From an uncultured Aquimarina sp. (GTDB lineage: Bacteria > Bacteroidota > Bacteroidia > Flavobacteriales > Flavobacteriaceae), in assembly GCA_937958985.1 (NCBI GenBank), contig CALGLV010000007.1, positions 1 through 64,000 of the forward strand: DNA of 64,000 bases, given 5' to 3'. Shown here in pieces: positions 5,255 through 10,679 of this stretch. Each line of letters starts with the position of its first letter. The first letter of the stretch is position 1. Position numbers and translations under genes: made by a program. The notes beneath the pieces were generated by a model that was not told the DNA's origin, made no database searches, and saw only the letters and a program-made list of their open reading frames with translations.

Positions 5255-8200
5255 TTAGCCTACTAATTCCAATTCTATTTCATTTAGGATTTCGAACTCC
5301 CTATAACAGCTATTCAATACTATTTCTATAGCATCATCAAATTCTAAAGATTGTATAACACTATTAACTTCGAAGAGTTTTACACCTTCGCAAAGCATTT
5401 TCCTGACTACGGAAAGTATTTTATAATTTTTTTCCTCTAACAAGTTTAATTCTTCCCATCTACCTAAAAAACCATCATTATTGTATTCAACCTCTTCTAA
5501 GCTTAAATCGATAGTAACTTTTGTTAAATTGTCAAATTCCTGAAGTATTAATTTACATAGAGGGCTGTTGTAAAACAAATCATTAAAAATTTGCTTTATG
5601 TTTTTCACATATTCGTATTGAAAACGGTGTTGATTTTCTACAAGTAACGCTATTTTATAAGGAGTAATTTCATCTTTACCACTCAACTTTGTAGTTTTTC
5701 TATTTTTAAAAGAATGATCGGCTATAAATGTATTTGACATCTCTGTAGTTAAGTGTAGAGAAGACAGCCAGTCTTTATATTGAATTTCCAAACTACTGGA
5801 TTTAAAAGCTACTTTTTTAAGTCTACCAATACAATACATGGTAAGCATTGAGGTGATTTCGTTAGATAAATGGTGGTTTGCCTTTCTAAATTCGTGAGTA
5901 GCATCTCTACCTGCATTATCTTCAACTATCTTATCTCCCCCAGGATGAATTTCCTTAAATTCCGTTAAATCATATACTTTTTCATCTATTGCTACCCAGT
6001 ATCCATTTTCCGGATTATTATGTTCAATAATATCGGACATATTATATTCTTGCCTATGAGAATCACAAACTTCGGAAGGAGTTGTGAATATATCTTGCAT
6101 TATTCGGTTTTCAGAAAACAACTTATAAAATATTTCTTGGCTATTTTGGTCACTTAAATTATTAATACGAATTACTTTTTTTAAGAAATTTAAAACAGTC
6201 AATGCGTAACCAGCCTTTCCACAAGAATAGAAATATCCTTTTTCATCTTTATCATTTATAGGAGCCATTGCCCTATATAATTTATCTAAATCATGTTTAT
6301 TTTCTATAAGACTACCCATTTTGTTGTTTATATTCAACTGGATATTTTTAAAAACTAAGGTCTTTTTTTCTATGGATTTTGATATATCAAGTATTTTTGA
6401 TTCTCTTGTTACTAATATTTGCATACGAGCATTTCCTAGTAATATACGCTCAAGGTCTTTTTTAAAAACAATATCTTTAATATTCTTAACACTATAAAAA
6501 ATAGATAAATTCGATAATTCGTTGTTTTTTTCTAAGGTTTCCCAAAAGCCTTTAAATGGCGCAATACCCGACCCGCCTGCAAACAAATATATGGGAACAT
6601 TTTTTTTAATGGGTAATGAAAATCGTAATGGAGATACTACTCTAAACGGAATTTTAGAATTTTCATTTACTTCATTTGAATGTAAATATGAAGAAGCTAC
6701 TCCTTCATAAACTTTATCGCCTACAACAGTCGTTGCATTACCTACGGTTAATTCAATTTTATGCTCCTCAAATCCAGAAGAAATACTATACATACGTTCT
6801 CCCTCTGGTTCTAAAATAGTTGTAAAATGAGGAAGCAAAAATTGTTTCGCATCCATATTGAACCGCTTAAATTGACTTACTAGGCTTAATAACGGTAACT
6901 GCCCGTTATCTTCTAACTTAATAAATTCTTTAATATGCCCACACATATCTAAAGCTTTTGAAACATTACCTAATTTTGCAGAAGTAAGAATTCTTCGCAC
7001 ATTAGTTTCGTTTAATTTTTCATTATAAAATGTTTGAAAATAGGTTTTCCAATTTTTACTTAAAAAAACAGATTCTTCCCCTGAAAGATTCATTACTTCC
7101 AGTAATTGTGAAATTTTATCGGTTTTATTTTTAGGCACTACAGCACATCTATCACCAGGCTCAAAAGAAACTCCTTTATCACTTACATCTAACACTATAT
7201 TTTTTGCAGCACTATCTCCTATTGATTCTTGACTTATAACTCCACTGTAAGGGCATTTAAGTTTTTTATCGGCATAACGCTCTAATCGTGTAGTTTCTAA
7301 TTCATCATCAACTTCTTCCCAAGTACGCTCTTTAAAAAGACCACTAAACCCACCTATAGTTACTGAACGACCTACTTTAAATGCCATTTGTAAATAGCCA
7401 TAAACTTTTCTGCGATGCACCCCTAAAAAACCTTTATCGCCAGAGTAAGCTTCTACAAAATCATAAAAAGCGCCATTTAAAGTTTCGTCATTACATTTTT
7501 CAATATACTTACCTAAAGAAACTTTATCTACTTCATTTAGAAAACCTCTCCAATGTTCGGGATACCATTCTCTAATAAACAAGGCTTCTTTACCTAAAAT
7601 AGTTTCATATTTATTTCTTTCAATAAAAGTATCTATTAAATGAAAAAAAGGAGATGAGGTACCACTAGGTCCTTGAACACCTTCTTTAAGAGGTACTGCA
7701 AAAGGAGCTACCGTTTTTGCCCATACAACAGGGTCTACATAAGTAGCGCTTCTAGGGTTAGGGTTTATTTTTAAAAAACTACTTTTTGTTACTTTACCAA
7801 CAACTCGCTTTAATTGTTGTAATCCTTTAATAACTTTTAATTTATCGTCATTTACAATAGCATCTTGAACTGCAACTACATAATTTAAAATCTCTTTTGT
7901 TTTAAAAGCGATTTCTGTTTGGGTTAAATAAAATACATTTTCCTCTTGGTTATTTACTGTAGGTGTAAGAAGGTTTAAATTGCTTAACTCAAACGAACCG
8001 TTTACATCTTTTAATTTCCAATTGTATATAATTAAATCGATGTATGATAAAAAAGGTTTAGGCCTGTTTAATCGCTTAGTAACTTCTTCCCAAGGTTTAG
8101 AGATACTATCTGGAATATTTAAATCCTCATTTCTCTCATTTCTTACATACGCATGAGCCAACATACTTAATAACATAGAGGCTCGACATAAATACTTATC

Positions 8201-8467
8201 TTCTAACAAATCGTTACTTGCCGTTAAAATCGGCAAATTTTGTATTGCCTTACGTAAACTTTGATTTTTATAATGATAGGGCATTTCAGCTGCAATTTCA
8301 TCCCATATAGAAAACGGAAATGGCAATTGTTCTAACGGCGCTATACTAGGCATAAAACCACGTTCAAAAGATAGAAAACCTAAGTTTTCGTGTCCTTTAG
8401 ATTGATTTATTTTTTCAGCGTATTTAACGTAATTATGGGCAGGCGAAGTAAGTTTTTGTAATTTCAT
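5255..8467 (-). CDS. Fusion of IDO-like haem dioxygenase, FAD/NAD(P)H reductase and cytochrome b5
   Basis: A 1070-residue protein with at least three modules. Residues 25-375 resemble indoleamine 2,3-dioxygenase: PFSIWDEIA, CRASMLLSMLAHAYV, YIDLIIYNWKLKD, the GPSGTSS loop (266-272) and LGVHRRKVYGYLQ with H351 at the proximal haem-ligand position. Residues 405-765 resemble the FAD/NADP module of cytochrome P450 reductase: EPGDRCAVVP, ERMYSISS (557-564), GVASSYL (589-595), AGGSGIAPFKGF (630-641) and YSCGKAG (747-753). No flavodoxin FMN domain is present. Residues 800-885 are a cytochrome b5 domain with HPGG (841-844) and a second axial histidine at H865 or H866. Residues 887-1070 are helical and unrecognised. 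The implied path is NAD(P)H to FAD to b5 to the IDO haem. It is the last gene of a leftward operon. The substrate is unknown, and no kynurenine-pathway gene is nearby. Confidence 0.88.
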   Translation of the reverse strand: MKLQKLTSPAHNYVKYAEKINQSKGHENLGFLSFERGFMPSIAPLEQLPFPFSIWDEIAAEMPYHYKNQSLRKAIQNLPILTASNDLLEDKYLCRASMLLSMLAHAYVRNERNEDLNIPDSISKPWEEVTKRLNRPKPFLSYIDLIIYNWKLKDVNGSFELSNLNLLTPTVNNQEENVFYLTQTEIAFKTKEILNYVVAVQDAIVNDDKLKVIKGLQQLKRVVGKVTKSSFLKINPNPRSATYVDPVVWAKTVAPFAVPLKEGVQGPSGTSSPFFHLIDTFIERNKYETILGKEALFIREWYPEHWRGFLNEVDKVSLGKYIEKCNDETLNGAFYDFVEAYSGDKGFLGVHRRKVYGYLQMAFKVGRSVTIGGFSGLFKERTWEEVDDELETTRLERYADKKLKCPYSGVISQESIGDSAAKNIVLDVSDKGVSFEPGDRCAVVPKNKTDKISQLLEVMNLSGEESVFLSKNWKTYFQTFYNEKLNETNVRRILTSAKLGNVSKALDMCGHIKEFIKLEDNGQLPLLSLVSQFKRFNMDAKQFLLPHFTTILEPEGERMYSISSGFEEHKIELTVGNATTVVGDKVYEGVASSYLHSNEVNENSKIPFRVVSPLRFSLPIKKNVPIYLFAGGSGIAPFKGFWETLEKNNELSNLSIFYSVKNIKDIVFKKDLERILLGNARMQILVTRESKILDISKSIEKKTLVFKNIQLNINNKMGSLIENKHDLDKLYRAMAPINDKDEKGYFYSCGKAGYALTVLNFLKKVIRINNLSDQNSQEIFYKLFSENRIMQDIFTTPSEVCDSHRQEYNMSDIIEHNNPENGYWVAIDEKVYDLTEFKEIHPGGDKIVEDNAGRDATHEFRKANHHLSNEITSMLTMYCIGRLKKVAFKSSSLEIQYKDWLSSLHLTTEMSNTFIADHSFKNRKTTKLSGKDEITPYKIALLVENQHRFQYEYVKNIKQIFNDLFYNSPLCKLILQEFDNLTKVTIDLSLEEVEYNNDGFLGRWEELNLLEEKNYKILSVVRKMLCEGVKLFEVNSVIQSLEFDDAIEIVLNSCYREFEILNEIELELVG

Positions 8468-8511: not shown

Positions 8512-9195
8512 CTACTTTTTTAATTCCTGCCTTATTAAGTGAGCTAGTTTTTCTGCCGTAACAAACCCTTCGGTTAAAACTTTAGTGCTATTTCCTATTT
8601 TAATGGCACTAGCTGGATAGCCCCGGAAACCGTAATTTTGAATATCATAGAAAGATTTTTGAGCTTTATTCTCATAACAGTTACTATGCAACCTTTCAAC
8701 AAATTGATCTAAACTAATATCATAATCACCGATTAAGTCTAAATAGAATTCATCGGAATGGATATCTTTTCCCTCTCCAAAAAATGCTTCCTGAATTTTA
8801 GCCGCGAAATCGAACACTTTTTCAGGTCGTAGGTCTTTAACGATTTCAATAGCCACAGAAGCTTTCATTGAATTGTACGGATAGTTTATACTATCTAACA
8901 GCTTCAAGAAACCCTCTCCAAATATTTGCCCTGTTCGATCTGTTACAGATTGCATATTCCTTCGAATATGGCTACTCATATACCCCATCTTAGGCCCTCT
9001 AATGCCCGCAAACAGACCAACGTTTACTAATTCAAAGTCAACTTCATTCTTTAAAAGATGAATTGCTTTTTTTAACTCTTCTGAAAAACCATAGCACCAT
9101 CCACATAAAGTATCATAACCGTAGATTAATTTAGGCTTGTTGGTTGTAGGCTGATGTCTAATTATTACATCGTTAATTGTTGGTTGATTAATCAT
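8512..9195 (-). CDS. DsbA-family (FrnE/YwbO-like) thiol oxidoreductase
   Basis: A 227-residue protein with a thioredoxin fold and the active-site motif CGWC (C31, C34) in the context YDTLCGWCYGFS, followed by a helical insertion and a cis-proline region (GYPASAIKIG). The FrnE/YwbO group of DsbA-like proteins acts in the cytoplasm, and no signal peptide is visible here, so a cytoplasmic disulfide or glutathione-linked role is likely. The gene lies 44 bp upstream of the large haem/flavin fusion and 47 bp downstream of the 213-residue unknown gene, all leftward. This suggests work on the same substrate or protection of the fusion protein, which is inference. Confidence 0.85.
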   Translation of the reverse strand: MINQPTINDVIIRHQPTTNKPKLIYGYDTLCGWCYGFSEELKKAIHLLKNEVDFELVNVGLFAGIRGPKMGYMSSHIRRNMQSVTDRTGQIFGEGFLKLLDSINYPYNSMKASVAIEIVKDLRPEKVFDFAAKIQEAFFGEGKDIHSDEFYLDLIGDYDISLDQFVERLHSNCYENKAQKSFYDIQNYGFRGYPASAIKIGNSTKVLTEGFVTAEKLAHLIRQELKK

Positions 9196-9242: not shown

Positions 9243-9884
9243 TTAATTTAATGTGTAGGAATACTTTGATCTATTCACTTTTTTACTAACACATTTATGT
9301 TGAATATTTCTAGAATAGCGATTCTCGATTAAGGAATCTTTAACGTCAAAAATCTTATGTATTTGCTTAGAGATATTTTTCAATTTCATTAAGCTAATTT
9401 CAATGTCGCTTAGGTTATGAAATTTGATATTTGAAGTGTGTGAATTTTTAGAACTGGTTTTATCGTCTATTGAATTAAAATGAATTACGGGTAATCCACT
9501 TTCCTCAAACAACTGCTGAATGTAATTACACAGAGTCAACTTTTCGGAACAATAAACTTTACTCGAAACACATCTGCTCCTGTCAAAAACAATGTATGCT
9601 GGTTTATTATACCTGCATGCTGCAAGTAGGTCATAAACAAACTGCATGGTTGAGCTCTCATCAAAATTTAATGGTAACGTAAAATATATGATGCTACTAC
9701 CTGCTATTAAACCTAAAATGTTAGAGAAACCTGAAATATGCCTTTCTGAAAACGATATACTAGAAGGAATTAAAAAGCTACTACTGTCAGTAGAATTTGA
9801 AAAACAAATTTCTTTTCCTTGTAAATCATCTTTTTCATATGTAAATTGTACAGTGCTAGGACTTAAAAAAGTATAATTTTTCAT
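9243..9884 (-). CDS. Unknown 213-residue protein, first gene of the IDO-fusion operon
   Basis: I do not recognise this protein. It starts at the first ATG leftward of the HxlR promoter region. It has no clear signal peptide. A hydrophobic segment at about residues 52-75 (GFSNILGLIAGSSIIYFTL) could be a buried strand-helix or a weak membrane segment. It has six cysteines, several in the middle third (ACRYNKP, SRCVSSKVYCSE, LCNYI), which fits the redox theme of its neighbours. The C-terminal 60 residues are basic and helical. Codon use is like that of its neighbours. It is probably cotranscribed with the DsbA-like and fusion genes. Confidence 0.7.
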   Translation of the reverse strand: MKNYTFLSPSTVQFTYEKDDLQGKEICFSNSTDSSSFLIPSSISFSERHISGFSNILGLIAGSSIIYFTLPLNFDESSTMQFVYDLLAACRYNKPAYIVFDRSRCVSSKVYCSEKLTLCNYIQQLFEESGLPVIHFNSIDDKTSSKNSHTSNIKFHNLSDIEISLMKLKNISKQIHKIFDVKDSLIENRYSRNIQHKCVSKKVNRSKYSYTLN

Positions 9885-10013: not shown

Positions 10014-10349
10014 ATGGAAAAAAATTCACAAAAATTAATAGACACCTGTCCTGTTAGGAAATCTTTGGATGTTATTGGAGGAAAATGGCGTTTATTGATA
10101 ATAGGACAATTCTTTCAAAGTAAGATTCACCGATTTAGTGAACTAAAGCGTCTTTTACCTGAGATTAGTGAGAAAATGCTTAATCAAGAATTGAAATATT
10201 TGATTTTACATAAAATACTTCAAAAAAAATCATATCCCGAAACACCGCCTAGGGTAGAATACTCTTTAACACAATTAGGAGAGAATGCACTTCCTTTTAT
10301 AGGAATGCTGGCTGAGTTTGGAACTAAAATTGAAGCCTCTGATGAATAA
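10014..10349 (+). CDS. HxlR-family transcriptional regulator
   Basis: A 111-residue winged-helix regulator. The family signature CPVRKSLDVIGGKWRLLIIGQF occupies about residues 12-33 when read in pieces, followed by RFSELKRLLPEISEKML and the wing region YPETPPRVEYSLTQLG. C12 sits at the conserved N-terminal position used as a redox or electrophile sensor in characterised members such as YodB and HypR. It is divergent from the leftward operon that holds the DsbA-like and fusion proteins, so it is the likely regulator of that operon. A bidirectional terminator follows. Confidence 0.93.
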   Translation: MEKNSQKLIDTCPVRKSLDVIGGKWRLLIIGQFFQSKIHRFSELKRLLPEISEKMLNQELKYLILHKILQKKSYPETPPRVEYSLTQLGENALPFIGMLAEFGTKIEASDE

Positions 10350-10354
10350 AAACA

Positions 10355-10395
10355 AAAAAAGCGAAATAATACATTTGTATCATTTCGCTTTTTTC
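10355..10395. terminator. Bidirectional terminator between the HxlR gene and the ACBP gene
   Basis: AAAAAAGCGAAAT and ATTTCGCTTTTTT form a strong stem, with ATAC and GTAT extending it, between two convergent genes. It can end both the HxlR transcript and the leftward ftsH-to-ACBP transcript. Confidence 0.85.
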
Positions 10396-10415: not shown

Positions 10416-10679
10416 TTATTTCAAATATTTATTTACTAAGTATATATATTTTTGTTTTGCTTCATCACGACTAAACTTACCTACTTGGAATAAGGCGTTT
10501 AATTTAAAAGCATTTCTTATTTCAACACTATCAGAAGGCCTGTATAAGCCTGTATTTTCTGTAGCCTGCTTATAATAAGCGTAAAACTTCAATTTAATAT
10601 CAACTGGTAACTTTTTGGTGTAGGCATTTGCTTCTTTAACAGCTTCTAAAAATTCTTTATGTAATTTTTCATTATCCAT
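10416..10679 (-). CDS. Acyl-CoA-binding protein
   Basis: An 87-residue four-helix acyl-CoA-binding protein of the usual family length. Recognisable positions are LPVDIKLKFYAYYKQAT (about 24-40), the middle helix with NAFKLNALFQVGKFS, and the final helix EAKQKYIYLVNKY. It buffers long-chain acyl-CoA in the cytoplasm. It starts 2 bp beyond the psd stop codon and is the last gene of the ftsH/phospholipid operon, so it probably serves membrane lipid synthesis. ACBP is widespread in eukaryotes and patchy in bacteria, but it is frequent in Flavobacteriia. Confidence 0.9.
   Translation of the reverse strand: MDNEKLHKEFLEAVKEANAYTKKLPVDIKLKFYAYYKQATENTGLYRPSDSVEIRNAFKLNALFQVGKFSRDEAKQKYIYLVNKYLK

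Follow-up and report, generated by a model that had tools for sequence, protein, structure and literature searches.

On a 64,000-nucleotide stretch of DNA from an uncultured Aquimarina sp. (contig CALGLV010000007.1, positions 1 to 64,000; hereafter the window) we found a gene whose product we read, with moderate confidence, as a self-sufficient haem oxygenase built on the fold of indoleamine 2,3-dioxygenase (IDO), in which electrons would pass from NAD(P)H through flavin adenine dinucleotide (FAD) and a cytochrome b5 haem to the IDO-fold haem and whose substrate is probably not tryptophan. The individual parts of the protein belong to known kinds; new to us are the way they are combined and the changes in the IDO pocket.

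Domain layout and relatives

The gene and its parts are as follows.

5255..8467, minus strand: whole gene, 1070 amino acids, encoding an IDO-fold domain, a FAD/NAD(P) reductase, a cytochrome b5 and a C-terminal helical domain
7253..8467, minus strand: IDO-fold haem domain, residues 1-405
6068..7252, minus strand: FAD/NAD(P)H reductase of the sulfite-reductase/P450-reductase type, residues about 406-800, without a flavin mononucleotide (FMN) domain (PDB profile and Foldseek)
5816..6052, minus strand: cytochrome b5 domain, residues 806-884, ligands His841 and His865
5258..5812, minus strand: C-terminal helical domain, residues 886-1070

An earlier reading made from the letters of the window (the sequence-only reading) had proposed that an IDO-like domain, a P450-reductase-type FAD/NAD(P)H module lacking the FMN domain and a cytochrome b5 follow one another in this chain, and the domain search bore this out. 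A Pfam scan of the protein gave six matches, among which flavodoxin (the FMN domain), globin (the haem domain of a flavohaemoglobin) and FHA were absent. Residues 3-404 are predicted to adopt the IDO fold, and His351, proposed as the proximal ligand, is conserved in 63/63 proteins of a first alignment (A1), in 238 of 240 retrieved proteins (two have gaps) and in 43/43 sequences of the bridging alignment described below. The protein shares fold and proximal haem histidine with IDO1 and IDO2 (PF01231) and differs from them in being fused to a reductase, a b5 and a helical domain; it is not a P450, having the IDO fold and a conserved histidine instead of the P450 fold and a cysteine thiolate ligand.

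The reductase part matches 1ddg by PDB profile (6.7e-53) and also gives a Foldseek match (1.8e-14), with the FAD domain of BM3 among the Foldseek matches. Its motifs R558/Y560/S561 (R-x-Y-S), G632/G634 (GxG) and C749/G750 (CG) are present in 63/63 proteins of A1 and its C-terminal aromatic residue, Phe794, in 61/63. In profile, fold, FAD/NAD motifs and Phe794 it resembles cytochrome P450 reductase and sulfite reductase flavoprotein, but of the parts of a diflavin reductase it has the FAD/NADPH-binding module and lacks the FMN/flavodoxin domain, the b5 coming next instead. The b5 domain (Pfam, 6.8e-20) carries the HPGG motif noted in the sequence-only reading and, like cytochrome b5, two histidines 24 residues apart (H841 and H865, 63/63 in A1), although here it sits inside a longer, oxygenase-like chain. 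Comparison of the C-terminal helical domain with the PDB gave no confident match.

In a protein search 370 relatives passed E 0.001, and the 120 of them that were listed all combine IDO and b5 with a reductase domain for FAD or NAD, some with extra domains: FHA in 53, a gamma-glutamylcyclotransferase/AIG2-like domain in 14 and a fused DsbA in one (P0024). The survey of genomes for the same architecture that had been proposed, run on one genome per GTDB species, gave 178 relatives, and 76 loci were retained, with titles naming Bacteroidota, Chloroflexi, actinomycetes, Myxococcales, Oligoflexales, Armatimonadetes, Poribacteria and others. Isolate genomes of Aquimarina agarilytica and Chitinophaga have the same layout. 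Where relatives bear a database name, it is for example 'cytochrome b5 domain-containing protein', 'FHA domain-containing protein' or 'sulfite reductase (NADPH) flavoprotein alpha-component'. A full-text search of open-licence papers gave, in the text available, no description of an IDO, reductase and b5 layout, and a Trichoderma/Armillaria transcriptome paper (PMC10269595, available text) had no bearing on the IDO-fold protein; the claim that no such protein had been described held to this extent, although with 370 relatives the layout is not unique.

Residues of the IDO-fold pocket

In human IDO1 the role of Arg231 in tryptophan binding is confirmed, the JK-loop residue Thr379 is essential and Ser167 lies at the distal site (PMC5758539, available text). 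The corresponding codons in the window are listed here together with that of the proximal histidine.

7415..7417, minus strand: His351, predicted proximal haem ligand, place of His346 of human IDO1
7706..7708, minus strand: Ala254, place of Arg231 of IDO1
7355..7357, minus strand: Ile371, place of Thr379 of IDO1 (JK loop)
7919..7921, minus strand: Gln183, distal site, place of Ser167 of IDO1

The bridging alignment (n=43) consists of 31 subfamily members and 12 plain bacterial IDOs, which serve as the bridge and were taken from a census of the class; this census yielded 13/395 genomes, namely the window's own genome and 12 that group with plain IDOs in the tree. One of the 12 loci (L094) has an in-frame stop, and its open piece alone was used. 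A HMMER alignment to PDB chains, which had set Trp249 against the Trp that follows Arg231, and a Pro against Arg231 itself, was replaced by the bridging alignment, which pairs DP...RVRP with DP...KTVAP without a gap; both mappings give no Arg at the Arg231 place.

At the Arg231 place all 12 plain bacterial IDOs have Arg, whereas 31/31 subfamily members, and 239/240 retrieved proteins, have Ala or Gly. The Thr379 place is Thr in 12/12 plain IDOs and, among the 31 subfamily members, Ile in 19, Thr in 4, another residue in 7 and a gap in 1; in A1 it is Ile in 61/63. The Gln183 place holds Gln in 235/240 retrieved proteins and in 21/31 of the wider set. Relative to the 12 plain bacterial IDOs, a loop behind the Arg231 helix is shortened by 12-21 residues, and the pocket region 240-273 is a long conserved stretch. 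The window protein is unlike IDO1 at all three places (Arg231 to Ala, Thr379 to Ile, Ser167 to Gln), and as judged from these residues its pocket would not hold tryptophan the IDO1 way. Because the anchors of the tryptophan carboxylate (Arg231) and ammonium (Thr379) are replaced by Ala and Ile, tryptophan is probably not the substrate and something else would be oxidised.

The substitutions at both places argue against a dioxygenase of tryptophan, or of a tryptophan derivative, in which the reductase and b5 merely keep the haem ferrous, and we regard this explanation as unlikely. So does a separate gene of the tryptophan-dioxygenase family (PF03301), which was found elsewhere in 8/8 Aquimarina and Chitinophaga genome handles tested (G000, G005, G007, G010, G021 and G056-G058; G007 and G057 look like one genome counted as two) and, over all carriers tested, in 20/25 handles, the window genome included.

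In a separate observation, the ten plain bacterial IDOs of one Bacteroidia genus (L091-L100) have His at the Ser167 place (10/10); human TDO likewise has a histidine, His76 (PMC5758539, available text).

Distribution, variant architectures and tree

The family is patchily spread: PF01231 matched in 5/33 genomes of the window's own genus (own genome included) and in 0/23 others of the order, and in a census of Chloroflexota the subfamily profile matched 3/400 genomes, all three already known. When the IDO part alone was searched, with proteins of about 220-700 amino acids admitted, 171 proteins were found. Of the 120 listed, 58 have IDO and b5 without a reductase domain, some of them perhaps cut by contig ends, and IDO-only proteins near 415 amino acids are also present. 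Hosts of the IDO-b5 form include Geodermatophilus and Streptomyces, the fungi Trichoderma, Pyrenophora and Parastagonospora, and a member of the window's own genus (G010). In a Saprospiraceae bin (L063) IDO and b5 are encoded by separate neighbouring genes that overlap by up to 38 bases, and a frameshift is possible there.

In the tree, a quick one with a midpoint root, several long branches and coarse, regular-expression-based architecture labels, all forms of the subfamily fall into one group (SH-aLRT 100) far from the plain bacterial IDOs, delineating a sizeable part of the IDO superfamily that has no name and spans many bacterial phyla and some ascomycetes. Reductase-bearing, IDO-b5 and IDO-only members are intermixed, which points to probable repeated loss or gain of the reductase. 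Four ascomycete IDO-b5 proteins without a reductase (P0138, P0145, P0160 and P0161) are nested among other sequences, and this position makes it likely that the fungal form was acquired from bacteria.

The N-termini of L026, L058, L059, L067 and L076 carry an AIG2/GGCT-like domain followed by a second conserved stretch (GAVFDM...GKD...), which by eye looks b5/MAPR-like.

Gene neighbourhoods

Three genes lie beside the IDO-fold gene in the window.

8512..9195, minus strand: DsbA-like thiol oxidoreductase with a CGWC site, 44 bp upstream of the IDO-fold gene and on the same strand (Pfam DSBA, 1.6e-8)
9243..9884, minus strand: fast-evolving protein of 213 amino acids, between the DsbA-like and HxlR genes, without a Pfam match of its own
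10014..10349, plus strand: HxlR-family regulator, divergent

Neighbours were counted from six-frame matches of hidden Markov models built from members of the same loci, so that seeds are recovered by construction; longest-frame calls of open reading frames gave antisense shadows in GC-rich loci and were not used. On this basis a DsbA-like orthologue lies near the gene in 10/11 Bacteroidota loci (on the same strand in 9) and an HxlR regulator in 8/11. The DsbA-like proteins have an invariant CGWC and Pro194 (8/8 aligned), the latter being presumably the cis-Pro. The Chitinophaga counterpart of the 213-residue gene is NmrA-like, and the HxlR orthologue at the near-identical Aquimarina locus L011 gives sub-cut-off matches to the redox regulators RrpA/RrpB. 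Scans for promoters and terminators did not clearly exceed the shuffled controls (27 vs 26.8 and 4 vs 2.4) and were given no weight; in the latter, a terminator-like hairpin lies at 10354-10395 on the minus strand, between the HxlR gene and a minus-strand gene at 10416-10679, the whole scan being near the shuffled level.

Outside Bacteroidota, genes of bacillithiol synthesis recur next to some members. We searched for bshA at the NCBIfam cut-off in 54 of the genomes behind the 76 loci (48 non-Bacteroidota and 6 Bacteroidota), five bshA-bearing loci having been noticed before this test was run. It was found in 5/48 non-Bacteroidota carriers, and in 5/5 of these it sits 3.2-5.0 kb from the IDO-fold gene; the stretch also holds a PIG-L deacetylase, which in the single case tested exceeds the BshB1 cut-off. 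Each of the six Bacteroidota genomes tested has bshA, and the window genome has it on a contig other than that of the IDO-fold gene. The Chloroflexota census brought no fresh carriers in which to examine this link (3/400). BshC (PF10079) was matched in the window genome and four Bacteroidota carriers tested and not in the five bshA-neighbour genomes. Since BshC is unmatched there, a conserved protein of about 390 amino acids beside bshA and PIG-L (L020:16108-17265, L021:11546-12760, L022:14211-15680, L023:11582-12754 and L054:14283-15434, minus strand) is a candidate stand-in for the cysteine-adding enzyme of bacillithiol synthesis; Pfam gave it no match (one member searched), NCBIfam nothing convincing (four members) and the PDB nothing convincing either (profile of five members, best E 0.27). 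One Chloroflexi genome (G062) has two copies of the family, L023 and L033, and L023 alone adjoins the bacillithiol genes.

Proposed function and alternative explanations

In the self-sufficient oxygenase that we propose, NAD(P)H would reduce the FAD of the reductase domain, electrons would pass to the b5 haem, which would do the work of the FMN domain in diflavin reductases, and from there to the IDO-fold haem bound by His351, where O2 would be activated; repeated reduction would give monooxygenase-type turnover. That IDO and b5 stay together where the reductase is absent (the 58 listed proteins and L063) was counted in favour of this reading. The sequence-only reading had also given the chain its own electron supply for an IDO-type haem. 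Its fold, haem ligands and fused electron-transfer parts are supported, whereas a tryptophan-IDO character looks unlikely in view of the Arg231 and Thr379 places and the separate PF03301 gene. Its reason for the reductase, the need to reach the ferrous state, is weakened too: according to the available text of PMC5350241 haem dioxygenases need one initiating reduction and no continuous reductase, and a single such event would not demand a permanent one. For the same reason a permanent reductase suggests a repeated, electron-consuming oxygenation of monooxygenase-like kind, and a reductase-wired IDO-fold haem would be a natural test of whether the fold can sustain it. A 2026 paper is titled 'Monooxygenase Activity of Indoleamine 2,3-Dioxygenase' (PMC12921851, available in part). 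Among structural kin of IDO/TDO, the haem-dependent aromatic oxygenases MarE and PrnB, compared here by description and not by sequence, include a His-ligated monooxygenase (MarE), with no fused reductase or b5 mentioned in the available text. If our reading is true, the protein would be an IDO-fold counterpart of P450 BM3, like it carrying haem domain and reductase in one chain with its own electron supply, and unlike it having a His-ligated IDO fold and a b5 in place of the FMN domain.

The DsbA-like neighbour in Bacteroidota, the DsbA fusion P0024 and the bshA genes within 5 kb (5/5) suggest thiol or redox-stress metabolism as the setting in part of the family. More tentatively, the family may form a new class of self-sufficient bacterial oxygenases with a reductase-less fungal branch, acting as monooxygenases in the metabolism of low-molecular-weight thiols or electrophiles, on a substrate other than an amino acid.

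Several findings weigh against these proposals. The reductase-less IDO-b5 and IDO-only forms mean that the built-in reductase is dispensable, electrons being supplied otherwise or not always needed, which weakens the case for continuous reduction. The Thr kept at the Thr379 place by 4/31 subfamily members, and Thr370 beside Ile371, which is invariant (31/31) and might partly stand in for Thr379, soften the loss of the anchors, and the PF03301 gene was not seen in 5/25 carrier handles, Bacteroidota Xanthovirga among them. As to thiols, bshA is on the opposite strand in 2/5 of the genomes where it is a neighbour and was not found over cut-off in 43/48 non-Bacteroidota carriers tested; a CBS-pair gene adjoins the IDO-fold gene in 47/75 loci and FHA domains are frequent among the listed relatives, and these partners could equally mean regulation.

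The combination of a haem with a FAD/NAD reductase follows the same logic as flavohaemoglobin, and the protein might be a nitric oxide dioxygenase or O2 scavenger in which the IDO fold replaces the globin, haem-bound O2 turning nitric oxide into nitrate while NAD(P)H feeds the haem. A weak match of the reductase part to the NO-inducible flavohaemoprotein model (3.7e-6; 26 bits, the cut-off being 432) and the adjacent HxlR-type regulator are in keeping with this. However, the conserved pocket region is longer than nitric oxide should require, and no nitric oxide genes were spotted among the recurrent neighbour clusters, judged by eye from the first member of each, so that we hold such a role to be rather improbable.

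The CBS and FHA partners are also what would be expected of a redox or O2 sensor, a non-enzyme whose two haems would sense the NAD(P)H/O2 state and relay it through FHA, CBS or HxlR partners. Adenylate-cyclase-like neighbours at three loci (L048:3657-4790, L067 and L026; Pfam Guanylate_cyc in the one tested, L048) point the same way. Yet the window protein has no FHA domain, no CBS neighbour is present at L011, and a whole NAD(P)H reductase with a strictly conserved pocket would fit turnover better, which makes a sensor doubtful in our view. Finally, although separate or part-fused versions exist (L063 and the IDO-b5 forms), the concern that a frameshift or misassembly had fused separate genes can be set aside with near certainty, as the same single open reading frame recurs in another Aquimarina assembly (94% identity), in isolates and across many phyla.
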